This document shows positions 38,839-54,536 of a stretch of DNA of 64,000 nt, in pieces. The position numbers were made by a program, and so were the translations under genes. Origin of the DNA: Rhizoclosmatium globosum (Eukaryota > Chytridiomycota > Chytridiomycetes > Chytridiales > Chytriomycetaceae); NCBI GenBank assembly GCA_002104985.1, contig MCGO01000069.1, forward strand, positions 1-64,000, written 5' to 3'. A model generated the notes under the pieces. That model worked only from the letters and a program-made list of their open reading frames with translations, did no database searches and was not told the origin of the DNA. How positions within the stretch are numbered: position 1 is the first letter of the stretch; each line of letters opens with the position of its first letter.

Positions 38839-38856
38839 CTCCTTCCAAAACAGTAG
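38839..38856 (-). pseudogene. Left stub of the kinase-like pseudogene split by the retrotransposon
   Basis: Read across the insertion with one target-site copy removed, the minus-strand frame runs from KGFAT on the right flank (49,991 onwards) into VLEGG here, comparable to KGYLIEGG in the kinase-LRR paralogue at 17,7xx. The homology stops at the telomere-like repeat, where the frame ends at a stop. So the gene was already truncated before the element inserted. Confidence 0.6.
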
Positions 38857-39338
38857 TGTGGGCGAGCGCCTTTTGCTCTCGCCTATCCCTTTCTTCTTGT
38901 TTTACTGTCGGAGTTGTTTCTTTCTTTTGTTTTATCTCCAGTTCCATTTCAGTCTTATACGTGGTCTTTCCCTTTTCATTTTGTTGGACCGAGTTTTCTT
39001 GGTGTGTTGTTGGAAATTGGTGGTGCGAGGTTCAGCAGGTTCAAGTGGGATTCAAGACCACTCTATCTCCCCACTTTATTCTAAATTACCCAATCTAAAT
39101 AAATGGGAGAAGTTACCCAAAAACAGAGCAAGTGGTGTGGTCAAGTCGACCGAACCAACCTACCACCCGCAAGACCTTCGAGTCTCAACGAGGTCACCCG
39201 CACCCTCGGGTCGCTCAGCTCGACCGCAGCCCGTGTTCTCGATCACTGTGCACCGCCATGGGGAAGGGGTACGAGTTACGAAGGCACTATCGAGTGCTCC
39301 CCTCATGGTGGTGGATCGAGTTTCCCTACTGGCCCACA
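38857..39338 (+). repeat. 5' long terminal repeat
   Basis: 482 bp, begins TGTGGGCGAGCGCC and ends CTACTGGCCCACA, with a 7-bp inverted end TGTGGGC/GCCCACA. Matches 49,509-49,990 base for base as far as I could compare. Contains TTTATTCTAAATTACCC and AATAAATGG around 39,075-39,105, a possible polyadenylation signal. Confidence 0.95.
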
Positions 39339-40493
39339 GACGCTGCCTTCTACCAGACTACTTGATCTGTTGTGGATCATCTACTAGCGATTTCGCGCGT
39401 TTCTCAAGGGTTTACACGCCGTTTTGGTCAAGTTGGAGAGGGTATCCACTTGGTATCCACTCCCGATCAAAGGCAATCGACGATCAAGCACTTGCTTCGA
39501 TTCCTACCCACGCCTACGACCCTTCTTCTGGAAGTCCGAATCCCAGATATGCTGTTTTGGTTGATTTGGCATTGGGTTGGGTATCTACGGATTTTCCCCT
39601 TGGTCTACAAGTGTTGCAGAGTCTCTTCGGACTCATATCGTCAACCTACAAACTCAGAATTTACGAGTACATTCCACGCGTTGTATTGTAGTTTCAGAAC
39701 GTGGTGTTACAGCGATGCGTCAGCCACACAAGCCTTGAGTTCCTTGATCGAGACGCTCCTCAAACTTGGACTTCTGACTTTGGCTATGGCATTGCTACGG
39801 AATTAACCACGTCAATGATTCTTATTCTTGTTGGTCGCACGCTATCCAGTTCATTTCGCAAGTTGGTCACAAGCCTGGTGATGGAAGCCTCCGGATTCAT
39901 TCCTGCCTCTGATACGGGAGAGTTGTACGTCTAATGTGCACATTACTAACTGCTTTTATTTCTGGATTCCGTCTGGTGTTGTGTTCTTGGTTGGACTAGA
40001 TATCTACTTCCTTCTTTCCCGTTGATTCAATTCTGATGGATGTGCAGGAAGTTACAGACGCATCTAGCATTACCAGACCACTACCACCGTTATGTTGTTG
40101 GATCTACCTTGGAGTTGTACCTACATTCAAGCCCGCTGTTTGAAAGAGTACAAGCCCATCAAGGCAATCCAGTGACAACTCTTGCTTTTGCGCTTCTTCC
40201 CTCATTGGAATCGGCTGGTTCTTTTGTTGTACGGGTTCTGTGATGGTTGTATGGTTTTGAGGGTTGTAATTAGGACCCTTTCCCCATTTTATTTTTGCTT
40301 TTGCTTGCTTAAGTTCTATACTTTTGCTTTCTGCCTTTAGCTTTGGTTGTTTTGTTTTGTGGTACGGGATTGAGTGCTAGTGGCGTGTGGATTGGATTGC
40401 GTGGTGAGCGGGATACTGAGGAGATGGAAAATTTGTTGTCTCTTGGCGGGTCCCCCCGTTAAAAGGCAGCAAGTTTTCCAGATATTCCTTGCC
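39339..40493 (+). other. Retrotransposon leader between 5' LTR and gag
   Basis: About 1.15 kb. Several open frames of 60-145 codons occur, one running out of the LTR to 39,691, but none shows a recognisable domain and they overlap in different frames. The sequence directly after the LTR is GACGCTGCCTTCTACCAG, not an obvious tRNA 3'-end complement. Long leaders of this type may carry packaging signals; nothing specific is visible. Two C/T-rich and G-rich runs (TCCCCCCGTT near 40,450) precede gag. Confidence 0.5.
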
Positions 40494-40633
40494 TTTCCCA
40501 CTCTTGCCGCGCAACTACCAGTTTTACGCGTCGCTAATGCTTAATCCAGGTACAAACCTCTTTTATCACAATACATTTCCCACTCTTGCCGCGCAACTAC
40601 CAGTTTTACGCGTCGCTAATGCTTAATCCAGGT
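40494..40633 (+). repeat. 58-bp direct repeat at the gag start, with a possible 82-bp intron
   Basis: 40,494-40,551 and 40,576-40,633 are identical, 82 bp apart, each containing the start ATGCTTAATCCAGGT. The first copy continues CAGGTACAAAC and the second ends TTAATCCAGGTG, so removal of 40,551-40,632 (GT...AG) would splice the first ATG onto the same Gag sequence. Without splicing, the first ATG opens a 29-codon frame that ends at 40,626, overlapping the gag ATG (40,619) by 8 bases. Confidence 0.75.
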
Positions 40634-43600
40634 GCTCTCGTCGCTAACGCTCTCAAGATCGAACAGTTCCATGGCTTCGACGTCGACAAGTGGTCTGACT
40701 GGTTCAGACTCTACGTTACATACGCTAAAGCCATGGGTGGCTCCAATCAGGATCGCGAATGGGTTCTCCTCGCGATCCAGGGCGCTACCATTCAGGACTC
40801 CGCGATCAGAGCTGATGCTACTGCGTGGGTTGCTACTCAAGACGCTGCTGGTATCCCGGTTTCCTTGGAGGACTTCCTCCAACACATGCGTCTCCAGTAT
40901 GCGAGTGGTAACAAGAAGGTCACATCCTCCGACGTACTCTCTACTATCAAGAACTACGGTGTCTTCCCTCCCGAAAGTCCTCATTGGGGTAACGTTGTCG
41001 CTGCTGGAATTGCCAAACGGTCCAAGATGTCCAATCCTGGCCAGTTCCCTGACAACGAGCTTGTCAAGGCAGTGTTGGGTGAGATGCGATTCGATATGAA
41101 CCAAGCGGTGCTTGCCACAATGGATGCTCAACGTAACCAAGTGGATCTTGCACGTGCCTCCCAAGGTGAACAGCCACTGGATCCTGATCGTGAATACACG
41201 CTTGACGAGCTCCAGTCTGCCTTGGTTCGCTTTGTTAATCGTGCTGCCAATCTCCCTTTCCGCCAAGGCGCCGCTGAAACCCCTGTTACTCCTCCCGTTC
41301 CTGTACCTCCAGTTGCTACTGGATCTGCTCCTCCAGTCTTCCCTTCTTCAAATCTTCGTGTTCCTTCAAGCCAGTCACGTGCTGCCACACCTGCATCTAC
41401 AATCCAGCCAAATATCAATGAGCTTTCGGATTTGATGAGTAAATTGAGCATCTTGCTTCAGATGCCAACTTCTGAGGTGATCAACGGACTTGCCAATGTT
41501 GGGATTCTCGAAGCTGACGTTGATGTTGATGCGTTTGATCTCAAGAACATTATCTGTTGGTATTGTCACGAGCCTAACCATCGCCCCGGCACTTGCCCTC
41601 ACCTTGATTCGGACATTAGAGGTGGGGCACCAGTCGCCATTGACGCCACTAAGAAACTCCGCTGGAAGATCATGAGTCTTTCCGGTACAGGTGCTTTTGA
41701 GTGGGGTGAGTACGTTAAGGGTAGTAAGATGGGAGCCCGTGCTAACGTGATAAAAGAGAATCAAGATCCTGACTGGTTTTCCAAAGCCAGAGCCAAGGCG
41801 CTTGCATCCAATACTGTCGGAGTCAACTACGGAAATGTTGAAGTCAGTATGCTATCATCTGTCTTTGACGAGAAGTTCCATTCTCCCCCAACCGAAGAGT
41901 CTACTTCCAAGTTCCATTCTCCAGTTCCACTGGCGCCTCTTGTAGCTGCGAAATCTTCTGTGAATTTCGCTCCAATTATAAGATCAACTGTTGCTTCAGG
42001 TTCTACTAAGTCCGCTGTGCTACGTCCTAAATTGGACATCTCCCGCGTTACACCCAAACAAGTTGATTGCGCTCTTGTTGCCATGGGTGTCACACAAGCG
42101 GGGGAAATGGTTCGCGTTAGTGATGTTCTTGACACTGTGATTGACTTGTTCTATACTGGCGAAGCTCAAGTTGCTCCAGCTATTCGCACTCGAGGAAACG
42201 TCACTATTCCTTGGCCTCCAGCGCCTGGGCAGGAAACCCTTCCAGTGAGGGAATCTCCACGTGACAAAGCTGCGCCTTATGCTGTTCCATTCCGTGAAGG
42301 TCCAAGACGATCAACTGAGTTGTCCGATTCTGATGAGGAAATGGACAACGCCCAACCAACAAATGCCGCACCCACTCCAAAAGTAGTTCCACCAACAACC
42401 GCTGTTTTGCCTGCCACTGCTCCTTCTGCCTCAACAAAGAAGCCTAAGAAGGAGCGGAAGAAGGCCACTGCTGCTCCCGCTCCCACTTCTACCAAAGAAG
42501 AGCCCGAGCCAGTCGCACTCAGCCAAGAGCAATTAAATGCTCTTGTTACGGAGCTGTTGGAGGCGCAATGGGGTTTGGGCATTTCACTTCGTTCTTTATT
42601 GGGTTCATCTGCTGAATTGCGAAAAGCTTTTGTAGAACGTCTACGCTCCCGTCGCACTTCCCCTGCCGCAAATGCTGATATTATCAAGGGTCTTAGCCTT
42701 ACTCTTGATTCCTGGGGTTTTGAAGTCGCTGATGCTGAACTTGGTACGATTGAGTCTTGCGTATTGGAAGAATTTGGTCCTTTCTGCGAAGACGGTACAC
42801 CTGACGAACGTCCTGGTGAAACTACTGCTGATTACTTGGAACGTTTTAAACGCTACTATGAAGTTCTTGAAGCTGCCAAGAAAGCATGTGGTTCTGGTTC
42901 TGGTTTGAATTCAGAACCAGAAGCTATGAAAGACGACCTTCCCGATTCTGCTAAAGACATCATGGCAGATTTTTCCGATTCTTTGTCTGCAGTCCTTGAT
43001 GCTATGAACCACTATTATGATGTTGGTGATTTGTCTGCGTCAGAGTTTTCAAGAAACCTTTTGCAAAAGTTCCAGTCTGCCTCGTCCAAAGTTATGGACA
43101 AATTTGCACCGCATACTTCTCGCTATGCTACGGTTCCCTCAGAAACGCCTCACCTTATGCCGGATCTTAATAACGCATACATTGAGTTGAGAGATTCAAG
43201 GCATCCGGCCCCCCGTGCTGGCAAGGTTATTGGCCCTAGTGTTGTTATTCAAGGTGGCATGCTTTCGGCGGATGACGTTAAGGATGTCATTGAAGCATTG
43301 CATTCTGAGTCGCGTCATTGGGATGCAAATTCCATTCCTTCATGCCTGAAACTCCCAGGTGCCGCGAGATTATCGAAGGACCTTCATTCTGCCGCGTCAT
43401 TGTCATCCAGTTCTACAAGAACTTTGCCAATTGAAACACCAGCTTCGGCTTCCAGTTCTGGTCCATCCACCGGTCCTTTCCCTCAATCTACCAATGCGAA
43501 AGGAAAGCAACGTGCTGTTCCCTTGGATGAACCCATTCGCGTTCCTGGAAGCAAAGGTTCCCCCGGTTTTGTTGCCCCTCGTAAGGTAGATGATTGCGGA

Positions 43601-44698
43601 AACGGCTACTACGACTTGACAGATGTTCTTATGGAGGATCCAACTCCAGAAACGGATTCTGACGTCGAAATTATTGCCGAGCCTCCCACTTACGTTGAAA
43701 CCATTCGTTCTACTGCAAATCCTACGGGTTATGGGACTGGTTTGTCAACCAAACCTTGCTTCTACTGTAAAAAGGGACATCCACTGTCGTCATGCTTCTT
43801 GTTAGCAAAACATAAGTCTATGGGGCTTGCGGTGGGTATTGACGATAAAGGAAAGCTTCGTTGGCAATTGACTAAAGTTGATGGTGGTTGGGATTTTGGT
43901 CCTCTTGTTGAAGGTCATTCTAATGGAGCGGTGGAGGTGACGTTTTCTGGATCTCGTAATGCTGCGCCAAGGTCCTCAGAAGCTGCTACCAGTTCTGGCT
44001 CTTCTGGCAGTCCTGTGACTTCTCGTGGAATTGCAAGCCGACTTGGTAACGGGCCTGTGAGTAATGCACCTACTCGCCCTTCAATCTCGTCGCGTCTTGG
44101 TGCTCGCGCGCGCCGTGGAACTTCCTCCTATTTTGTGGAAATTGAAGTCCTTGCTAACGAGTTGGACGAGGGTGACACTGATGATGACGATGGAGTTTCT
44201 AAGGATAATCGTGTGCGATGTCTTGTAATTGCAACATCCCCACGTTGCATTGTACTTCTTGGTGGTCGTATTCTTGTTTCGGCTGTTCTTGATACTGGAT
44301 CTCAAATTTGTACAATTGCGAGATCAATCCTGGACAAGATTGCAGATCTTTGCGGCGTTCATGACGCGTCTACAGTCAATATGCGTTCTGCACATGGAGA
44401 TGTGCGTCAACTTGCTGGTCTCGCAGTGATTCCAGTCCATCTTCACGGATTCGTCTATCACGTTCAGTGTTGGATTGTTGATGACACTGCCAAAGGAGTA
44501 AAGTGTCCTTACCAGATGCTTCTTGGACAACCGTTCATCCAGCTTGCTAGAATGCACATGTGGTGCGAGGAAAGCGGTGATATGTGGGCAAAAGTCTTCT
44601 GTCCTACTACTGATGCCGTCTTGCGTTTCAAGATTGCAGACCGTCTCCACCCAGACAATCAGTACAGCTTGCAAGGATTCCGTCTCTCTCGTGGTTAA
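40619..44698 (+). CDS. gag-pr: Retrotransposon Gag-protease polyprotein with two zinc-knuckle modules
   Basis: 1359 aa from the ATG at 40,619. N-terminal part (KIEQFHGFDVDKWSDWFRLY...) resembles retrotransposon capsid regions. A CCHC knuckle C-x2-C-x4-H-x4-C lies near residue 313 (CWYCHEPNHRPGTC) followed by KLRW; a second, slightly shorter knuckle C-x2-C-x3-H-x4-C lies near residue 1047 (CFYCKKGHPLSSC), also followed about 33 residues on by KLRW and a Trp-containing segment. Between them are Pro/Ala/Lys-rich linkers and helical parts. The C-terminus is an aspartic protease with the catalytic VLDTGSQ (Asp near residue 1225) and the MLLGQPF motif. Gag packs the RNA; the protease processes the polyprotein. 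It is about three times the usual Gag length. Confidence 0.9.
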   Translation: MLNPGALVANALKIEQFHGFDVDKWSDWFRLYVTYAKAMGGSNQDREWVLLAIQGATIQDSAIRADATAWVATQDAAGIPVSLEDFLQHMRLQYASGNKKVTSSDVLSTIKNYGVFPPESPHWGNVVAAGIAKRSKMSNPGQFPDNELVKAVLGEMRFDMNQAVLATMDAQRNQVDLARASQGEQPLDPDREYTLDELQSALVRFVNRAANLPFRQGAAETPVTPPVPVPPVATGSAPPVFPSSNLRVPSSQSRAATPASTIQPNINELSDLMSKLSILLQMPTSEVINGLANVGILEADVDVDAFDLKNIICWYCHEPNHRPGTCPHLDSDIRGGAPVAIDATKKLRWKIMSLSGTGAFEWGEYVKGSKMGARANVIKENQDPDWFSKARAKALASNTVGVNYGNVEVSMLSSVFDEKFHSPPTEESTSKFHSPVPLAPLVAAKSSVNFAPIIRSTVASGSTKSAVLRPKLDISRVTPKQVDCALVAMGVTQAGEMVRVSDVLDTVIDLFYTGEAQVAPAIRTRGNVTIPWPPAPGQETLPVRESPRDKAAPYAVPFREGPRRSTELSDSDEEMDNAQPTNAAPTPKVVPPTTAVLPATAPSASTKKPKKERKKATAAPAPTSTKEEPEPVALSQEQLNALVTELLEAQWGLGISLRSLLGSSAELRKAFVERLRSRRTSPAANADIIKGLSLTLDSWGFEVADAELGTIESCVLEEFGPFCEDGTPDERPGETTADYLERFKRYYEVLEAAKKACGSGSGLNSEPEAMKDDLPDSAKDIMADFSDSLSAVLDAMNHYYDVGDLSASEFSRNLLQKFQSASSKVMDKFAPHTSRYATVPSETPHLMPDLNNAYIELRDSRHPAPRAGKVIGPSVVIQGGMLSADDVKDVIEALHSESRHWDANSIPSCLKLPGAARLSKDLHSAASLSSSSTRTLPIETPASASSSGPSTGPFPQSTNAKGKQRAVPLDEPIRVPGSKGSPGFVAPRKVDDCGNGYYDLTDVLMEDPTPETDSDVEIIAEPPTYVETIRSTANPTGYGTGLSTKPCFYCKKGHPLSSCFLLAKHKSMGLAVGIDDKGKLRWQLTKVDGGWDFGPLVEGHSNGAVEVTFSGSRNAAPRSSEAATSSGSSGSPVTSRGIASRLGNGPVSNAPTRPSISSRLGARARRGTSSYFVEIEVLANELDEGDTDDDDGVSKDNRVRCLVIATSPRCIVLLGGRILVSAVLDTGSQICTIARSILDKIADLCGVHDASTVNMRSAHGDVRQLAGLAVIPVHLHGFVYHVQCWIVDDTAKGVKCPYQMLLGQPFIQLARMHMWCEESGDMWAKVFCPTTDAVLRFKIADRLHPDNQYSLQGFRLSRG

Positions 44699-45042
44699 GT
44701 TGCGTTTTTGGACATTCTAGCTTTTCATTTCCTTCTGTAGTTGTGTTCTCTTGCCATTTCTTACCTTCATTTTCTATCTCTGGTTTTTATCGCATGGGCG
44801 GTTTCTCCATTTCTTTTTTTTGGTCATTAGCTTGTTGCTGTTTTGGTGGAAATTTTGCAGGTTCTTCAAACCTGATCGGAAGTTGATCAAAAACACAAAA
44901 AGTAAAAGACTTGTACCCTACACCCTCTCCACCTGGACTGACTCTCTTGAGTACTACTTGTGCTACATTCATTGCGGCAAGTCCCTGTCCTCACTACTGG
45001 TTTCAATTGTCTCCCTGGTATTAGCTTGTATTGGTGCGCTCG
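44699..45042 (+). other. Gap between gag-pr and pol
   Basis: 344 bp with stops in the frames of both flanking ORFs. A GT-AG pair could be drawn (AG at 44,859-44,860 in TTTTGCAG and at 45,023-45,024 in GTATTAG), so pol may be expressed by splicing; reinitiation is the alternative. An overlapping frame 44,751-45,098 encodes hydrophobic runs but no known domain. Confidence 0.4.
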
Positions 45043-48000
45043 ATGGTATCCAGCAAGCAAAGTGGATACCCTCTACAGGTTTGCAGCTCCAGTTCTGATG
45101 GTGCTACTGGCTGGCAAACAGAGTCGTGGGACTCATACTACCATTCTGTGGACGCGGCCAATGCTGCTGCCTCCAACTCTGTCACTTCTGGCTCTGGTTG
45201 GGTATCCAACGTGTCTGATATTTGTTATCCAAGAGCTACCACGCGTCATCTTCGAAGATTGGATGCAATCGCACAAGATGAGTCTGTCTCCCAAGTAGTA
45301 ACCTTCACGCACGACGCTTCCGCCTACTCTGTGCTGCAGATTGCGGATACCCTCTCACGTGACGGCTATGTTGATTCTTGGTTGGATTTTGAAGTGTTGC
45401 AGCATTGTATCTCGCGGTTGGATGCTACGTATCAATGGAATGCCGGAATCGCTATTGACGTTCATACTATGTACAAACCTGTCTCGCGTAAGGTACGCCC
45501 AGCTACGGAGATGCTTCCTGACGGGGCTGCTCCACTTGGTTGGGATGCTCCTGACCGGCAAGTTGATCCTATTGGTCTTTCTGACGAGCGTATGGACACA
45601 CTCTGCTCCGATGCCGACTGGCTTTCCCCAACAGAACTGGTGCTATTGAAATCTATGCTTCGAGAAGAAGCTGCTGCGTTTTCATTCACTATTGGTAGCC
45701 GTGGTCGCGTCAAGCCAGAGTTCTGCGAGCCTGTCAAGATTCATACTGTGGAACACAAGTGTTGGAAGTTCAAGCCACGTAAGATTCCATACCAACAAAT
45801 GGAAGCTTTAATCAAGCTGCTACGCGAGAAGCTTGATGCCAACATTATGGAGCCTTGTTTTGGACCATATGCTGCCAGTTTCTTCCTTGTTCCTAAAAAG
45901 GACGGCTCACTTCGTTTCATCCAGGATTTACAACCGTTGAATCGAGTCACTATTCGCGATGCTGGTATTCCACCGGCAGCGGAGGAAGTCATTAATGAAT
46001 ATACAGGTCTGGCCATTTACTCTCCACTTGATTGCCACTCTTGGTATGACCAGTTCACCTTGGATCCATCTAGTCGTGACCTAACTGCTATTGCGACTCC
46101 TCTTGGTTTGATGCGGATGGTAACACTTCCGCAAGGGTGGACTAATTCGGTTGCCATTGCTCAACGTGCTTCGGTCAAGATTCTCCAGCCGTTTGTTCCG
46201 CATCTGGTCAGACCCTTTGTGGACGACTATGTTGTGAAAGGCCCTAAGACTCATGAAGCTGATTCTACTCTTGTGATGCCAGGAGTTCGCAAGTTTGTTG
46301 CCGATCATATTGGTAACCTGCGTTCCATCCTTCAACGTGTTCAAGAGTCTGGAGCTACGCTATCAGGACTGAAGTCTCGTTTTTGTAGTCGCAGCTGTGA
46401 AGTTTTGGGTCACCTTTGTGCTTCTGATGGTCGCCGACCTGGTTCCAAGGTCAAGAGACTCACTAATTGGGGTCCACTGCAAACAGTTACAGATATTCGG
46501 TCGTTCCTTGGTCTTGCCAACGTTTTCCGCAAGTATATTCCTCGGTTTGCACTTCGGGCACATACGCTCTTTTCCATGCTTCGGAAGGGCGCGGATCTTG
46601 AAGCGAATAGCGAAGCCATTGAATCCGAGAAGCAGGATTTGTGTGCCGCGCTGACAGCTTATCCAGTCCTTCGCGCTATTCGATATGATGTGGGAGCAGG
46701 TAACAGGTTTGTCACTGTTGACAGCTCTCCAATTGGATGGGGAGCATGGCTTGGTCAAGAGGAAGACGGTGATCGCCATGCGGTCATATTTGTTTCTGGA
46801 CGATTTAGTGATGTTGAGGCGCGTATGCCGCAACACAAACGGGAGATCCTTGGATGTTTGAATGCGCTGAAGGCGCTCCACATTTACATTTGGGGATCGG
46901 AGTTTGTTTTGGAAACGGATGCTAAAGCTGTGGTGGGGTCAATTGATAAGGTTGCAACACTCGACGAGACTTGCAAGCGGTGGCTTCTGGGAATTCGATC
47001 CTACCATCCAGTCGCAATCCTCCATGTTCATGGAAAAGACAACAAGGTTTCTGACGCTCTTAGTCGCGCTCCAGACTTCTGGAACGACTCGGATGAAGAA
47101 TCAGATTTGGAGTCACATGTGGACAATGTTCTTGGTCTTGTGGTTGAGGTGGACGTCACAACTCTATCTGTTATCAGTTGGAATGTCAATTCTATCCGAA
47201 GTGCTGCCAAGAAGATGGGCGAGTTGTTTGGGCTGTTTCTTCTGAAACATGACATCATCTTTTTGCAGGAAACACGCATGGGTCGAGCAAGTTTCGACAA
47301 GTTGCAGGGACTGGATTACAAGGCAACACACTTTGCCTATTATTCTGACTATCCTGTGGAGTGTGATGACAATGGGGTCCCACTGAAAGGCGCATATGGT
47401 TCTGGTATGAACGGTGTTGCTATTCTTGTTCGCAAGGGGTTGTTTGCTTCGGACTATGCGGACGAAGCACACAATTGCTTTTCTGGTTGGTCTGTTACGC
47501 TGATGGAAGGTCGGTTTATCGCAATCAAGTTTGGCGCAATAATTCTTACGTCCATCTACTTCCCTGCGGCAATTGCTGGAAGAGAGTTCCGTGTTCCCTA
47601 CAAGCTTCGATTCATGGAAGCGGCTCTACAGGAGCTCAAGTCTTACAGGGATCGTGGATTAAAAGTGATTGCTGGATGTGATTGGAATGTGTCGCGTCTG
47701 GATATTGACATTCATCCCGCGCTGATTCGTCTTATTGGATCAGGATTCTCTCCTGTTGAGAGAAATCTACTTGGCCAGTTGTGCTTCGAGTTTCAAGATT
47801 CTTTCCGCGTTTGTCACCAAAATGTTGTTTCATATACAACCTGGTGGCATCCAGACAGACGTCAGAATCAAGGTTTCCGCTTTGATGGCATTCTTGTTGA
47901 CCTGTCTTTGCTTGTTTTGGACGCATCCCATGTACACGAAGTTCGAGGCTCAGATCATTGCCCTGTCTTTGCAAGAATTCAGCTTCCTTTCCCATCTGTT

Positions 48001-49458
48001 GAGGTTTTGAAGTGGTCCTGGGACGACTGTGAAAAGTGGTGGGACTCAGAACTTTATGATGAAGATGTGGTGGACGTGAAAAATACTATCAAGAAGCTTG
48101 GATTGTCTGGTCGTCTCGCGGCCGTCTACTGGTTTTTGGTTCTTGGCAAACTCCCTCCTGGAATGGATGCTGAATCTGTGGAAGCCATCTTACGTCAAAG
48201 CTCTCTTTACCTTGTTCAAGACGATCTTCTCTTCCGAAAGCCTCCAGACAACCAGAATAGTCCCCCGCGACGTGTTGTTTGTCATCGAGACGAAAAAGAC
48301 TTTATTATCAAGCAATCCCATGAAGGTTTTGGTGGAGGACATCGGAGTGTGCATGGAACTGTTGCCAAGATTTCTGCACGATACTGGTGGCAAGGCATCT
48401 GGGAGGAAGCTGCTGCTCACATCAAGTTTTGTGACCCGTGTCAGCGTCATAATCCCATCCGCTACTATGAACCGCTTGAAGTGCAAAAGGATTCACTTTT
48501 CCATGGTTTGTTCCGCCGTTGGTATGTTGACCTTGTCGCAATTGAAGGAACATACCTTGCACTCTACAGCGAAGAAATTTCTGGCTGGCTCGAAGCAGGC
48601 TACTTCAAGGGAAAGTCTGCTGCGCCCATTGTCCGCGACTTTGAACGCCAAGTTATTTCCCGATATGGAGTACCGGTTGAGGTTGTTATTGATGGAGGGG
48701 AACTGAGTGGGAGCGCATTGGCTGATAAGGCCAAAGAGCTCCTGTTCAACTGTCGCATCGTTATGGCCTATGGACAACAAGCAAATGGCAAAGTTGAACG
48801 CGCAAACGTCCCCATTGTCAGTGCCCTAGCCAAGGTTTGTGGTAGCAAACCTCGCAGGTGGGTCAAACACATTTGGGCTGCACTTTGGGCTTCTCGTATC
48901 ACTGTGAGCCGAACCACTGGAATGAGTCCCTATGAGCTCCTATTTGGTCAAGAGCCAGTTCTGCCAATGGAGTTTGTAATTGAGTCTTACGCAGTGATCC
49001 ATTGGGAATCTGTTACTTCGACCGAAGATTTGATTGCAGCTCGAATTCGAATTCTTGAACGACGTTCTGCTGACATTGAACTTGCTCGTGAACGGATTAT
49101 TGTTGCTCGAGAGCAACGCGCCAAGCAGTTTAATCGCAACCACCGTCTACGTCCTGAGTCGGAACTCATTGCTGAAGGCGACCTGGTTATTGTGCGTGAT
49201 TCTAAGTTGGATAATATGTTAGGAGCCAAAATGCGTTGGAGATATTGTGGGCCATACTGGGTGGTCCGCATTGGGCACAATGCTTACTTCTTGTCTGAAA
49301 TGGATGGTACACACTTGAAGAAGGCGGTTCACGGTTCTCGTGTTAAGCTTTACCACAAGAAAGGAGCCACTGAAGACTTCCCAACCTCTCTTTTGCAGGA
49401 AGAAGAGGAACTATTGGGTGTTGAAGTTGGGTTGTTTGAGTACGAGCGTTTGTACTAA
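45043..49458 (+). CDS. pol: Retrotransposon Pol: RT, RNase H, EEP endonuclease domain, integrase
   Basis: 1471 aa from the ATG at 45,043 in one uninterrupted frame. Reverse transcriptase: PCFGPYAASFFLVPKKDGS, then catalytic FVDD (Asp near 394). RNase H: VDSSPIGWGAW (Asp 560), HKREI, LETDAKAV, SDALSRAP. Residues about 707-983 form an EEP domain with every family motif: SWNVNSIR (Asn 714), FLQET (Glu 743), YGSGMNGVAIL, CDWN (Asp 880/Asn 882), RFDGILVD, GSDHCPV (Asp 971/His 972). Integrase: zinc finger H...H...C-x2-C (about 1092-1135), core YVDLV, VIDGG (Asp 1217), KVERA (Glu 1252, 34 residues between), and a GPY-like CGPYWVVRI near 1402. The EEP insert has no place in the usual Ty3/gypsy Pol. 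Confidence 0.93.
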   Translation: MVSSKQSGYPLQVCSSSSDGATGWQTESWDSYYHSVDAANAAASNSVTSGSGWVSNVSDICYPRATTRHLRRLDAIAQDESVSQVVTFTHDASAYSVLQIADTLSRDGYVDSWLDFEVLQHCISRLDATYQWNAGIAIDVHTMYKPVSRKVRPATEMLPDGAAPLGWDAPDRQVDPIGLSDERMDTLCSDADWLSPTELVLLKSMLREEAAAFSFTIGSRGRVKPEFCEPVKIHTVEHKCWKFKPRKIPYQQMEALIKLLREKLDANIMEPCFGPYAASFFLVPKKDGSLRFIQDLQPLNRVTIRDAGIPPAAEEVINEYTGLAIYSPLDCHSWYDQFTLDPSSRDLTAIATPLGLMRMVTLPQGWTNSVAIAQRASVKILQPFVPHLVRPFVDDYVVKGPKTHEADSTLVMPGVRKFVADHIGNLRSILQRVQESGATLSGLKSRFCSRSCEVLGHLCASDGRRPGSKVKRLTNWGPLQTVTDIRSFLGLANVFRKYIPRFALRAHTLFSMLRKGADLEANSEAIESEKQDLCAALTAYPVLRAIRYDVGAGNRFVTVDSSPIGWGAWLGQEEDGDRHAVIFVSGRFSDVEARMPQHKREILGCLNALKALHIYIWGSEFVLETDAKAVVGSIDKVATLDETCKRWLLGIRSYHPVAILHVHGKDNKVSDALSRAPDFWNDSDEESDLESHVDNVLGLVVEVDVTTLSVISWNVNSIRSAAKKMGELFGLFLLKHDIIFLQETRMGRASFDKLQGLDYKATHFAYYSDYPVECDDNGVPLKGAYGSGMNGVAILVRKGLFASDYADEAHNCFSGWSVTLMEGRFIAIKFGAIILTSIYFPAAIAGREFRVPYKLRFMEAALQELKSYRDRGLKVIAGCDWNVSRLDIDIHPALIRLIGSGFSPVERNLLGQLCFEFQDSFRVCHQNVVSYTTWWHPDRRQNQGFRFDGILVDLSLLVLDASHVHEVRGSDHCPVFARIQLPFPSVEVLKWSWDDCEKWWDSELYDEDVVDVKNTIKKLGLSGRLAAVYWFLVLGKLPPGMDAESVEAILRQSSLYLVQDDLLFRKPPDNQNSPPRRVVCHRDEKDFIIKQSHEGFGGGHRSVHGTVAKISARYWWQGIWEEAAAHIKFCDPCQRHNPIRYYEPLEVQKDSLFHGLFRRWYVDLVAIEGTYLALYSEEISGWLEAGYFKGKSAAPIVRDFERQVISRYGVPVEVVIDGGELSGSALADKAKELLFNCRIVMAYGQQANGKVERANVPIVSALAKVCGSKPRRWVKHIWAALWASRITVSRTTGMSPYELLFGQEPVLPMEFVIESYAVIHWESVTSTEDLIAARIRILERRSADIELARERIIVAREQRAKQFNRNHRLRPESELIAEGDLVIVRDSKLDNMLGAKMRWRYCGPYWVVRIGHNAYFLSEMDGTHLKKAVHGSRVKLYHKKGATEDFPTSLLQEEEELLGVEVGLFEYERLY

Positions 49459-49508
49459 TCCACCCGCAGTCCTCGTCGGGGTTACCATTTTCTTTTGGTT
49501 TGTCAGCC

Positions 49509-49990
49509 TGTGGGCGAGCGCCTTTTGCTCTCGCCTATCCCTTTCTTCTTGTTTTACTGTCGGAGTTGTTTCTTTCTTTTGTTTTATCTCCAGTTCCATT
49601 TCAGTCTTATACGTGGTCTTTCCCTTTTCATTTTGTTGGACCGAGTTTTCTTGGTGTGTTGTTGGAAATTGGTGGTGCGAGGTTCAGCAGGTTCAAGTGG
49701 GATTCAAGACCACTCTATCTCCCCACTTTATTCTAAATTACCCAATCTAAATAAATGGGAGAAGTTACCCAAAAACAGAGCAAGTGGTGTGGTCAAGTCG
49801 ACCGAACCAACCTACCACCCGCAAGACCTTCGAGTCTCAACGAGGTCACCCGCACCCTCGGGTCGCTCAGCTCGACCGCAGCCCGTGTTCTCGATCACTG
49901 TGCACCGCCATGGGGAAGGGGTACGAGTTACGAAGGCACTATCGAGTGCTCCCCTCATGGTGGTGGATCGAGTTTCCCTACTGGCCCACA
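49509..49990 (+). repeat. 3' long terminal repeat
   Basis: 482 bp, the same sequence as the 5' LTR as far as read, ending GGCCCACA immediately before the target-site copy GTAG. The 50 bp upstream of it (49,459-49,508) contain no purine run typical of a polypurine tract; the nearest purine-rich stretch is GCAGGAAGAAGAGGAAC near 49,396-49,411 inside pol. Confidence 0.95.
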
Positions 49991-50196
49991 GTAGCAAATC
50001 CCTTAGTTTCAACAATGTTTGGATGTTGGAATGGAGACAAGACTGATGCATCAGACCCAGGCGGAAGCTCCTTCACTGCAACTGGTTCACCATCAAGGGT
50101 CCCAGCATAGACAGTAGCAAGACTACCAATCCCGAAAATTTGATTGAATTCAATCTGAAGCATCTGTGATAAGAGGTCGGCCAGTGGTGGCGGCAT
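49991..50196 (-). pseudogene. Truncated kinase-like gene carrying the retrotransposon
   Basis: Starts at 50196 with a kinase N-lobe: IFGIGSLATVYAG, VAVKELPPGSDAS, FQHPNIVETKGFAT. It is closest to exon 1 of the kinase-LRR gene at 18,008-20,048 (the same TLDGEPVAVKELPPGSDAS). The LTR interrupts it after the GFAT codons and the remainder on the other side is only the VLEGG stub at 38,839-38,856. The catalytic loop, C-lobe and LRRs are absent, so it is a fragment, not a gene that the insertion alone destroyed. Confidence 0.8.
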
Positions 50197-50331: not shown

Positions 50332-52166
50332 CTACAGCTTGTTAAACAACGGCCCGTTTTGCCGTCCAGTCTTAAATCTTCCACGAATAGACACTGGCAA
50401 TGTTCCCTGAAGAAAGTTTTGGTCCAAGTTCCTGAAGTCACGTTTAGAATCACTATGTGAATACGATTCTCTCTTTACAATACGCCTAATCTCGTAAGCT
50501 CCCCTAATTCATTTGGAACCGTACCCGTCAATCCATTGGAATTCAACAACCTAAGAGAATTGAGGTTAACAAAAAACCTTAACTGTACAAGTAAACATAC
50601 AATTTCTCAAGTGCCTGCAGGTTATACACGTTCGCAGATAAAGGACCCGTCAAAGAGTTTTTGGAAAGATTCCTGGTTCAGTTAGTCTCGATTTCTTCTC
50701 TCAAACCGTCATCAAAGATACTCACAATGAAGTCAACCGATACAACGTCCAAACTTCCTCAGGAATCGATCCACTAAACTTGTTATCGCTCAAATCCCTA
50801 TTTGAAGCCCCAATTATCAATGTCCTCACCTCATGACAATAAAGAAAACCACTCAACAACTCGCGCAACTCAGTCAACATCCCAATTTCAGCCGGAATAG
50901 TCCCCGAAAGCTTCTCCCCCGACAATATCAGTGAAACCAACCGATCTTCACGGTTCCACTGAAACATATACCTCGTTTCCGTAGATGGAAACGGAGCCTG
51001 CGCTCTTAAAACGGCTCTTCGAAGTCCAGGCTTGTCATTGATTTTCTTTTTATGTTTCCATTCAACCGGCAGAAAGTCCCAAAGAATGTCAAGATCTGTG
51101 CGGACTTGTCCGTATGAGGGAGGTAGAGTGGTTGGAGGTGGAACAACAAAGGATGATGCAGACGCTGACGAGGAATTTGGGTGATAGGCAGACGACGAGG
51201 ATTGCTGGGATTCAACGTGTGTCAAGTTCAACAAGTGCTCCAAATCGTTGGTGTTGACTTGCTCATAGCTTGGAGGCTCAGGGGCAGGAGATTGTTCCAT
51301 AGCGCCTGAATTGGCTGGAATGGGTTGATTTTCAAGAGCTTGAGCTTCCAACGCAGCCAGGACATCAGCCATTGAAGGCCTCGCCAGAGAATCTTGATCC
51401 CAACAACGTTGAATCAAGTTCCATATCCAATCAGGAACACTCGAATCTTCAGGTCGCGCAGGACGCTTACCAGCAACAACCAACAGTGGAATTACAGACG
51501 GCCGAGCTTTGTGGAATGGAACACACCGAAACACCGTCTCATACATAACCATTCCAAATGAGTACACATCTTGTGCAGTCGTGTAATCAGCTTCAGGATC
51601 AGAACAACATTCCGGAGGAATAAATGCCAAGTGGCTGTCTGGCGTTCGATAAGATCGATACATTCGTTTGAGTTTATAGAACTCAATGTTACTCAATTTG
51701 GCATTTCCATCGAAATCTAAATGGTGGATGTATTAAGTAGGCTTATCATCTTTAAACAGACCAAACCAATCAAAACACATGACGTCTTCAGGTCCCCATG
51801 GACAACTGGATTTGGCAGTTGGTGCAAGTAGGAAAGAGCAGTAGCAATCTGTTTCAGCCAGAGAATGCGACTTGAGAGAGAAGTTGAAGGAGCCGAAGGA
51901 AGCTGTTCTTGAAGGGTAGATGCCATTCTCTCCATGATAACAACTGCCTTTCCTCCTTCAATCAAGAATCCCTTCACATCAACAATGTGAGGATGCTCAA
52001 ACGAGGAAAGGATTGATGCATCACAGCCAGGTGGAAGTTCCTTCACTGCCACAGAAGCGACATCGAGTTCTCCTGCACAAACAGTGGCAAGACTACCACT
52101 TCCAAGAACTTGATCTCGCTGGATGTGAATGGTTTGCGGCGAAAGGTCAACGAGGAGCAATGTCAT
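50332..52166 (-). CDS. Kinase-like/LRR protein 3 (predicted pseudokinase)
   Basis: Exon 1 begins at 52166 and is almost identical to exon 1 of the gene at 16,167-17,920 (GSGSLATVCAG, VAVKELPPG, VVHGDLKTSC). After an intron with an unusual donor (GTTTGG), exon 2 diverges strongly: LSNIEFYKLKRMYRSYRTPDSHLAFIPPE, YSFGMVMYETVFRCVPF, QRCWDQ...ARPSM, Ser-rich linker, DILWDFLPVEW, then L..N.L.G.IP LRRs in small exons ending in GRFKTGRQNGPLFNKL (stop 50332). DFG is replaced by NIE and HGD is kept, so a pseudokinase like its paralogues. The identity of exon 1 with a different exon 2 points to a recombination joint at exon 1/intron 1. Confidence 0.7.
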
Positions 52167-52252
52167 TTGATTGATTGATTTGTTGGTTCAATTTCTTCTC
52201 TCAATTTGATGCATTCATTGTTAAGTTTATTCTAAGCAAAGGGAAGTTTGGT

Positions 52253-54536
52253 TTATGAAAACTGAGGATACTGAAATCCCATATAAAACTTGCTTTTCAA
52301 AAGCGGGGGCATGGTACCTGTCAACCAGTTTTCCGAAACGCTCCTGCAGATTTGTTATTCGAATGTCCAATGAAGATGGCGAGCGCAGAACTTACATTGT
52401 GCGCAATCTCGATAATTGTCCGAATTCATCTGGAACAGGGCCTTTCAATCGATTCGTGTTTAACTGTCTGTTTCAATATAAGCCTTATGACATCGCTTAA
52501 ATGAAGAGCTCACAAGTTCACTAAACGTGTGCAGTATGCAAGCGAAGGAGGAATACGCCCCTCCAACTTGTTCTTTGACAGATCCCTACCCAGGATAAAT
52601 TAATAAAACAAGTTATAGAAACAAAGTGACAAACTTACAATGACACAAGCTTTGACAAATTCCCAAGCTCAGGTGGGATTGTTCCCACCAATCGATTCGT
52701 GTTTAACTGTCTGTTTCAATATAAGCCTTATGACATCGCTTAAATGAAGAGCTCACAAGTTCACTAAACGTGTGCAGTATGCAAGCGAAGGAGGAATACG
52801 CCCCTCCAACTTGTTCTTTGACAGATCCCTACCCAGGATAAATTAATAAAACAAGTTATAGAAACAAAGTGACAAACTTACAATGACACAAGCTTCGACA
52901 AATTCCCAAGCTCAGGTGGGATTGTTCCCACCAATCGATTCGTGTTTAACTGTCTGTTTCAATATAAGCCTTATGACATCGCTTAAATGAAGAGCTCACA
53001 AGTTCACTAAACGTGTGCAGTATGCAAGCGAAGGAGGAATACGCCCCTCCAACTTGTTCTTTGACAGATCCCTACCCAGGATAAATTAATAAAACAAGTT
53101 ATAGAAACAAAGTGACAAACTTACAATGACACAAGCTTTGACAAATTCCCAAGCTCCGGTGGGATTGTTCCCACCAATCGATTCTCGCTCAAATCCCTGT
53201 TTGCAGATGTCAACAGATCAATCAAAAATCCTACACCATCAATACTCACAACTCCTCCAACTCCGTCAACTCCCCAAACTCAGGTGGAATCACTCCAATA
53301 ATACCCTCCCCCTTCAAATTCAATCCAATCAACCGATCGTCGTCCGTTTTCCACGTGAACATCAAATTGCTACCTATATGCCCACTTCCAAATCGTAAAC
53401 TCTGGAGCTGTAAATTCCGCAGTTGCTGTTTACTGTGAATTTTTCTTCGCCTCTTCAATTCTTCAGGTAAGAAATCCCACAATATATCCACATCGGTTCG
53501 CGATATTTCTTGATAAGTGGGAGGAATGGGGATAGGTGGTGGCACAATAAATTCGGATAATGGGCGGGAAGACGATTGAGCATCCATAAACGAAGTGTTC
53601 AGTGCAAACTCCAAATCGTTTACATTGACTTGCTCATACGTGGGTGGCTGTTGTTGAACAGGTCTTGCTGTTGCTGCCAGTGAAGGTACGCCACCACCTT
53701 CACTCGCCAGTAACAGCTCCACTTCTCCCATTGAGGGTCTTTCAATAGAATTCTGGCTCCAACAACGATTAATAATGAACCATAGCCAGAGGGGAATAAC
53801 ATCAACCGTAGGTTGTTGAGGGCGTTGCCCATTTTCCACCAAAGAAGAAATAGCGACAGAGCGAGTGTTTGAGAAGGGAGGATGTCCACAAAGAGTCTCG
53901 TACATGATCATTCCAATTGCAAAGACATCTTGCGCCGGTGTTTGTCCACAGTCAACTTCAGAGTATACTTCAGGCGCAATAAAAGGAAGGTGACAGTCTG
54001 GAGTGCGGTAGAATCTTGATTCCTTTTTCAACTGATACAATCCAATATTGCTGATCTTAGCATTTCCATCATTATCTGTGTTGAGAGTGCAAAATTTGAT
54101 AAGTGGATGCTTTCCTCGCACTGCCAAGACTCAATTGTCACTCACCAATCAAAATGGAAGACGTCCTCAAGTCACCATGAACAACTGGATTTGGCAGTTG
54201 ATGCAAGTAAGCCAATGCATGAGCGACTTGCTTCAGCCAGAGAATGCGACTGGAAAGTGTCCTTTCCGATGCAAATTTAAGCTGATCTTGAAGAGTGGAG
54301 GCCATTCTTTCCATCAGAATCAGTGGATTCTTCAGCACAGCAAATCCCTTAATTTCAACAATGTTTGGATGTTGGAATTGAGACAAGACTGATGCATCAC
54401 AGCCAAGTGGCAGCTCCTTCACTGCAACTGGCTCACCATCAAGGGTCCCTGCATAAACTTTAGAGAAACTACCCTGGCCAAGCACTTGGCTGCTTGGCGT
54501 TTGGATTGCGTGCGATGAGAGGTCAATAAGGGGCAT
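52253..54536 (-). CDS. Kinase-like/LRR protein 2, duplication copy B (longer LRR part)
   Basis: Same layout as the gene at 18,008-20,048: start 54536, N-lobe GQGSFSKVYAG and VAVKELPLG, VVHGDLRTSS, intron, ISNIGLYQLKKE in place of DFG, FAIGMIMYETLCGHPPF, RCWSQ...ERPSM, DILWDFLPEEL, then LRRs. The C-terminal end SKFYMGFQYPQFS at 52253 is shared. It has three rather than two 243-bp LRR units, so it should be two LRRs (about 48 residues) longer. The frame is intact across all exons compared. As before, a predicted pseudokinase because of NIG for DFG. Confidence 0.78.
52455..53183. repeat. Three tandem 243-bp units encoding LRR exon pairs
   Basis: Unit starts CGTGTTTAACTGTCTG at 52,455, 52,698 and 52,941; the units are nearly identical to each other (one TTTGAC/TTCGAC and one CTCAGG/CTCCGG difference noted). 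Each contains NRLVGTIPPELGNLSKLVSL and NKLEGRIPPSLAYCTRLVNL as separate exons on the minus strand. Confidence 0.88.

Follow-up and report, generated by a model that had tools for sequence, protein, structure and literature searches.

A predicted ExoIII/APE1-type nuclease domain in the Pol polyprotein of Gypsy-like LTR retrotransposons of Rhizoclosmatium globosum

The window analyzed here, that is, the whole 64,000-nucleotide stretch of contig MCGO01000069.1 of the chytrid Rhizoclosmatium globosum, contains a forward-strand LTR retrotransposon. Its two LTRs (38857..39338 and 49509..49990, 482 bp each, TG...CA ends) are identical at 482/482 positions, as had been read from the sequence alone, and the unstranded 4-bp TSD GTAG flanks each outer end (38853..38856 and 49991..49994). 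ORF1 (40586..44698, +) encodes a Gag-like region, two CCHC-like zinc knuckles that were read by eye, and, near its end, an aspartic protease (about 44261-44536, +) whose match (E 5.5e-5) is marginally below the Pfam cut-off (24.2 vs 24.3 bits). Roughly 326 bases (44699-45024) separate ORF1 from ORF2, which encodes Pol in a different frame (45031..49458, +) and might be expressed through splicing or re-initiation; the open frame comprises 1477 codons from 45025, has its first ATG at 45043 and contains no internal stop. Pol carries, all on the plus strand, an RT domain (45889..46413; PF00078, RVT_1, residues 287-461) with the FVDD box at residue 396, an RNase H domain (46630..47004; PF17917 and PF17919, residues 534-658), an EEP nuclease domain (47167..47979), the H2C2 zinc-binding domain of the integrase (48292..48456; PF17921, residues 1090-1142) and the integrase catalytic core (48529..48798). 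The core was placed by alignment with families A2, A3, A4 and B1 (see below), all of which share its DD34E triad (D1167, D1221 and E1256), while PF00665 gave no match reaching E 0.1 in this copy. Paired LTRs, their terminal dinucleotides, a short TSD and the order protease, RT, RNase H and integrase are Ty3/Gypsy-type features, to which the EEP domain before the integrase is added. We read the element as a Gypsy-like LTR retrotransposon that is intact and whose insertion was recent. Elsewhere in the window, a region of repeated minus-strand ORFs (50722-54127), which by eye resemble kinase and leucine-rich-repeat fragments, contains a repeat (52409-53194) present in three copies with 243-bp spacing.

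The sequence-only reading had proposed that the Pol of this element includes a catalytically complete EEP nuclease, in frame and without stops, that follows RNase H and precedes the zinc finger of the integrase; the Pfam order, the open ORF and the predicted catalytic residues bear this out. PF03372 (Exo_endo_phos) matches 47173-47958 (residues 715-976) with E 3.1e-14 in the whole ORF and 6.3e-16 with the domain alone, and NCBIfam TIGR00633 (xth) matches 47167-47979 with 131.5 bits (E 3.8e-38; cut-off 99.05). The span first given, 47160-47995, located the domain correctly but had limits that are out of frame; the in-frame domain is 47161-47994. All EEP motifs quoted in that reading occur in the translation, with positions assigned to five of them, and the predicted catalytic residues are N9, E38, Y134, D175, N177, D243, D266 and H267 (numbered from 47158). 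E747 and D975, numbered in Pol from 45031, correspond to Glu743 and Asp971 in the numbering from the ATG at 45043, which runs 4 lower.

The predicted structure of the domain resembles ExoIII/APE1 structures among the matches listed. LINE-borne EEP domains of the same genome score 41.5 and 69.2 bits against xth and a further one has no match, and the EEP-RT loci of the genome stay below 86 bits. Because the window domain passes the xth cut-off and its model resembles ExoIII/APE1, we assign it, on profile and predicted structure, to the ExoIII/APE1 repair nucleases and not to the LINE endonucleases. The link to LINE endonucleases drawn earlier is thus contradicted by the xth score and the model. 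A LINE domain lying within an LTR element was rejected as a candidate, since the window domain is xth-like and the LINE-borne domains of the genome score lower; nor does the element itself belong to the non-LTR elements, having LTRs and an integrase.

A profile search of the genome (56.9 Mb, 420 contigs) returned 83 PF03372, 60 Integrase_H2C2 and 132 RVT_1 matches, counts that are lower bounds and include near-identical copies and perhaps haplotype duplicates. A same-strand PF03372 match lies within 4.5 kb of 46 of the 60 Integrase_H2C2 loci, and once xth matches are added 48 of the 60 have an upstream EEP. RT, EEP and zinc finger share one stop-free frame in 17 of 26 EEP-bearing loci examined, with L018 as an eighteenth such frame whose RT is weak (RVT_1 E 0.004). 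That most of the related loci carry an EEP suggests that such elements come with a repair enzyme of their own for use in copying or insertion. Three copies of the window's family, each at a site of its own and with its own TSD (GTAG, TTAC and CTAC), all carry the EEP and have identical LTR pairs (482/482, 411/411 of the part compared, and 482/482); the Pol of the other two differs from the window's at 4 and 3 residues. The domain is therefore present in the sister copies; its absence from all of them, with direct repeats flanking it in this one copy, is what the sequence-only reading had named as fatal to its proposal. A decayed nested insertion, which that reading had denied, was likewise rejected, as the frame has no stops and the sister copies share the EEP. 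Beyond this family, a clade-B copy on C416 has identical LTRs of 1037 bp and a CGCT duplication, and in the A4 copy on C146 the LTRs agree at 99.7% over 1436 aligned bases, with no clear TSD at the two ends, so that 4-bp TSDs are present in four of the five copies whose two ends were compared. The LTR ends of A2 and A3 were not found within the pieces examined.

These copies bear directly on the idea that the domain entered a single copy by chance fusion or as a nested insertion, or is an assembly artefact, for which we found no support and to which we assign a negligible probability. The three sister copies with their different TSDs all have the EEP, as do 12 families and four public proteins, and the EEP-less, B4-like locus L055 has a single deletion of ~1.17 kb that begins just inside the EEP and leaves its first codons. 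L055 was also considered as an ancestral EEP-less state and rejected, the retained codons marking the deletion as secondary.

The sequence-only reading had treated a single element and called for a search for others with the same domain order. By EEP sequence the loci split into at least 12 families, A1-A6 and B1-B6 (families and ARRANGEMENTS), some B pairs being close to one another (B1-B2, B3-B4), and the EEPs of the 11 other families share 26-54% identity with that of the window. The RT tree places A1-A6 in one clade and B1-B6 in another, which also takes in the EEP-less L055; the remaining EEP-less Gypsy-like elements fall outside both in the best tree, and one EEP-less element, L032, joins a protein of Rhizoctonia solani (97/93), in line with a fungal host. 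A topology test does not reject a single clade of all EEP elements (p-AU 0.255), in an RT tree that omits A4, which is placed in the other RT tree, and P0121, which has no RT. The RT of clade A lies on a long branch away from other Gypsy-like rows, in a tree built without a reference set of named clades. The domain is found between RNase H and integrase in A1-A3 and before RT in A4-A6, and the RT tree separates these two groups (100/99 and 98/96); therefore, the EEP moved within Pol or was regained. Several members of the A4 and A6 families have peculiarities of their own. L018 (A4) has a highly divergent RT whose YxDD box is LQDD, and, with L062 (A4 family, C146), LTRs of ~1.4 kb and many internal repeats of 50-200 bp. 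In L036 and C383:78644 (A6 family), the EEP match starts at profile position 31-35 or later, and the first EEP strand is absent from it.

Four public Pol proteins (P0121, P0122, P0123 and P0128) also carry an EEP. P0121-P0123 have the order RNase H, EEP, integrase, P0121 starting at RNase H, whereas P0128 (2469 aa) is a Gypsy-like Pol with the order EEP, RT, RNase H, SET, integrase. Three arrangements are thus seen, RT-RH-EEP-IN, EEP-RT-RH-IN and, in this one public protein, EEP-RT-RH-SET-IN; the EEP adjoins the integrase in 9 of the 12 families and 3 of the 4 public proteins, and precedes RT in the other three families and P0128. P0122 and P0123 group with clade B in the RT tree (100/100), as do P0121-P0123 in the EEP tree (100/100), and therefore the B domain was inherited together with its Pol and its fusion predates the B families of this genome. 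The proteins came from a clade-B search in which 20 of 5226 public candidates matched, four of them with PF03372; the window EEP searched in long public proteins gave 0 of 2071 candidates at E 1e-3 as relatives of clade A. Viral contigs gave one locus, which when read by eye looks like a common ExoIII gene of bacterial type, and 31 plasmid records matched the EEP search, the best 5 of these 31 being about 30% identical (four bear the annotation exodeoxyribonuclease III, and the fifth has no annotated feature). As for the nuclease itself, one EEP tree joins the LTR-borne rows in a single group with uncertain support (76/98), a tree with long LINE rows does not make them one group, and a third, unresolved tree has A, and B with three public proteins, as two starred groups. 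One candidate host AP endonuclease with introns, on C113, is known from its frames and stands outside the trees.

All 16 retroelement rows (12 families and 4 public proteins) have the catalytic E, Y, D, N, D, D and H, and all 15 rows that extend to the first catalytic N have it too. Across the 12 families, 7/7 catalytic columns are invariant as compared with 22 of 214 fully filled columns (P 4.6e-8, the families not being fully independent). A chance match is ruled out by the E-values and, in addition, by this invariance. The EEP is under purifying selection, with pN/pS of 0.13-0.47 in all seven family pairs computed; pN and pS are quoted because synonymous sites are saturated. The RT, at 0.02-0.30 in the family pairs computed, is more constrained, and pN is higher in the EEP than in the RT in 7/7 pairs. 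This relaxation is what one might expect if the EEP were kept for DNA binding or for Pol folding and not for catalysis, but we regard such a role as very unlikely, given that the catalytic columns are invariant beyond the general conservation of the domain. One position of the active site does vary. The pocket tryptophan, which we take to be W280 of APE1 and to mark specificity for AP sites rather than the fold, is W in 16/16 ExoIII rows, in 6/6 clade-B families and in three of the four public proteins; it is F in A1-A3, including the window, A in A4, and M in A5-A6 and P0128. Because the tryptophan is replaced there, abasic-site specificity may have been lost or changed in clade A, the window's clade. 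The window EEP, as predicted, thus shares with ExoIII/APE1 the fold, the catalytic residues and a score above the TIGR00633 cut-off, but differs from them in being fused into a retroelement polyprotein and, throughout clade A, in this pocket.

Which step would such a nuclease serve? An integrase-independent route, as floated in the sequence-only reading, found no support. Because the DDE triad is intact, the EEP likely supplements the integrase, and, given the triad and the 4-bp TSDs of most copies compared, the integrase probably remains the joining enzyme. A nuclease could still act on the target: the EEP might nick host DNA or open chromatin at the insertion site, guiding the integrase or allowing LINE-like target-primed synthesis, and would here substitute for the chromodomain, the usual targeting module. 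The distribution of the two domains has some appeal for this idea, as the 60 zinc-finger loci comprise 48 with EEP only, 6 with chromodomain only, 6 with neither and none with both, and the EEP of A4-A6 precedes RT, as in LINEs. Yet this exclusion follows clade lines, and the association is weak because copies within clades are not independent; moreover, P0122 has both domains, and P0121 has an EEP together with a chromodomain match barely below the cut-off. The integrase-typical TSDs and LTR termini, and a domain that scores as xth where LINE domains of the same genome stay below the cut-off, also speak against target nicking, which we judge unlikely. With LINE endonucleases the window domain shares the superfamily and the role of retroelement nuclease, but it is of another subfamily, and its element has LTRs, integrase and a 4-bp TSD. 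With chromoviruses the element shares the Gypsy-type Pol order plus an extra domain; in contrast to them, no chromodomain was found in the window Pol (Pfam, E 0.1) or among the 48 EEP loci counted, and none of the 30 chromodomain matches of the genome lies behind an EEP-bearing zinc-finger locus.

The priming signals of the window element may be atypical. Upstream of the 3' LTR (49309-49508), the last 60 bases hold no purine-rich tract directly next to it, and the bases after the 5' LTR (39339-39378) lack the initial TGG of the usual tRNA primer site, from which we suggest that priming of this element may be unusual. ExoIII has RNase H and 3' end-cleaning side activities, and the EEP could in principle make or remove plus-strand primers with them, replacing the polypurine tract. 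The window element, with its missing tract, is compatible with this, but in a comparison of a few element ends an A-rich purine tract lies four bases upstream of the 3' LTR in the clade-B copy on C416, which bears an EEP, and Pol already possesses an RNase H domain; we consider it distinctly unlikely that the EEP serves to prime the plus strand or to remove RNA.

We favor instead, at a probability of roughly 0.45, a role ahead of integration, in which the EEP would process abasic sites and the 3' ends of the cDNA, as drawn from its family, its place in Pol and its conservation. Released inside the particle and joined to RT/RNase H or to integrase, the EEP would have the cDNA of its own element as substrate, serving as a 3' phosphodiesterase or 3'-5' exonuclease and as an abasic-site nickase; blocked, abasic or untemplated 3' ends would be cleaned and thereby made fit for extension by RT and for joining by integrase. 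It would then be an element-carried repair enzyme, in purpose like the dUTPase of other fungal LTR elements. The nearest families are the DNA-repair enzymes ExoIII and APE1, the catalytic residues are conserved and the EEP mostly sits beside the integrase, all of which are consistent with cDNA processing. Four points stand against it. First, the pocket tryptophan is changed in clade A, although such a pocket would suit 3' processing more than it would specificity for abasic sites. Second, in A4-A6 and P0128 the domain is away from the integrase, before RT. Third, repair enzymes of the host could perform this task. At last, one B4-like copy, L055, lost the EEP. No dUTPase accompanies the EEP elements in the genome, where four dUTPase matches fall at two gene-like places, C124 and C125; these are perhaps haplotype duplicates.

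The nearest precedents that we found for the capture of such an accessory domain are a dUTPase and a DEDDy exonuclease. Fungal Gypsy elements (PosPlaTy3, Tmt1) carry a dUTPase in Pol at varying places, for which separate acquisitions have been proposed (PMC2864245); as here, a DNA-hygiene enzyme would have been captured into Pol at a variable place, but the dUTPase keeps uracil out of DNA whereas the window element has a DNA nuclease. Bdelloid LTR elements encode a DEDDy 3'-5' exonuclease in ORF3 (PMC5408684), likewise a captured nuclease of a 3'-end-processing family, but of an unrelated fold and in a separate ORF after pol, in contrast to the EEP fold inside Pol here. Complex transposons with many additional domains have been ascribed to multiple insertions (PMC3248453). 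Among the literature matches listed, a search scope that leaves aside Repbase and most subscription papers, we found no account of an LTR Pol that contains an EEP of ExoIII/APE1 type, nor of these elements as an established family, in agreement with the earlier reading. PF03372 has been taken as a LINE domain in annotation (PMC10799480). Elements with an EEP in an LTR Pol may be misfiled wherever this domain counts as a LINE domain.

The best explanation of the window locus is that its Pol has gained a nuclease, predicted to be of ExoIII/APE1 type, as a regular subunit. More broadly, and with a confidence that falls a little short of even, we propose an old, widespread Gypsy-like class whose Pol includes an ExoIII/APE1 nuclease as a fixed component, arranged in at least three ways and possibly through repeated gains, and in which the window's lineage would have shifted from abasic recognition to an element-specific DNA-processing step needed for reverse transcription or integration. 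LTR elements use integrase, and LINEs use an EEP endonuclease; against this textbook split, 48 of the 60 Gypsy-type loci found carry a repair-type EEP along with an integrase. Should the nuclease be required, LTR retrotransposition would be limited by cDNA ends that are damaged or blocked, and these elements would offer a natural fusion with which to test it.
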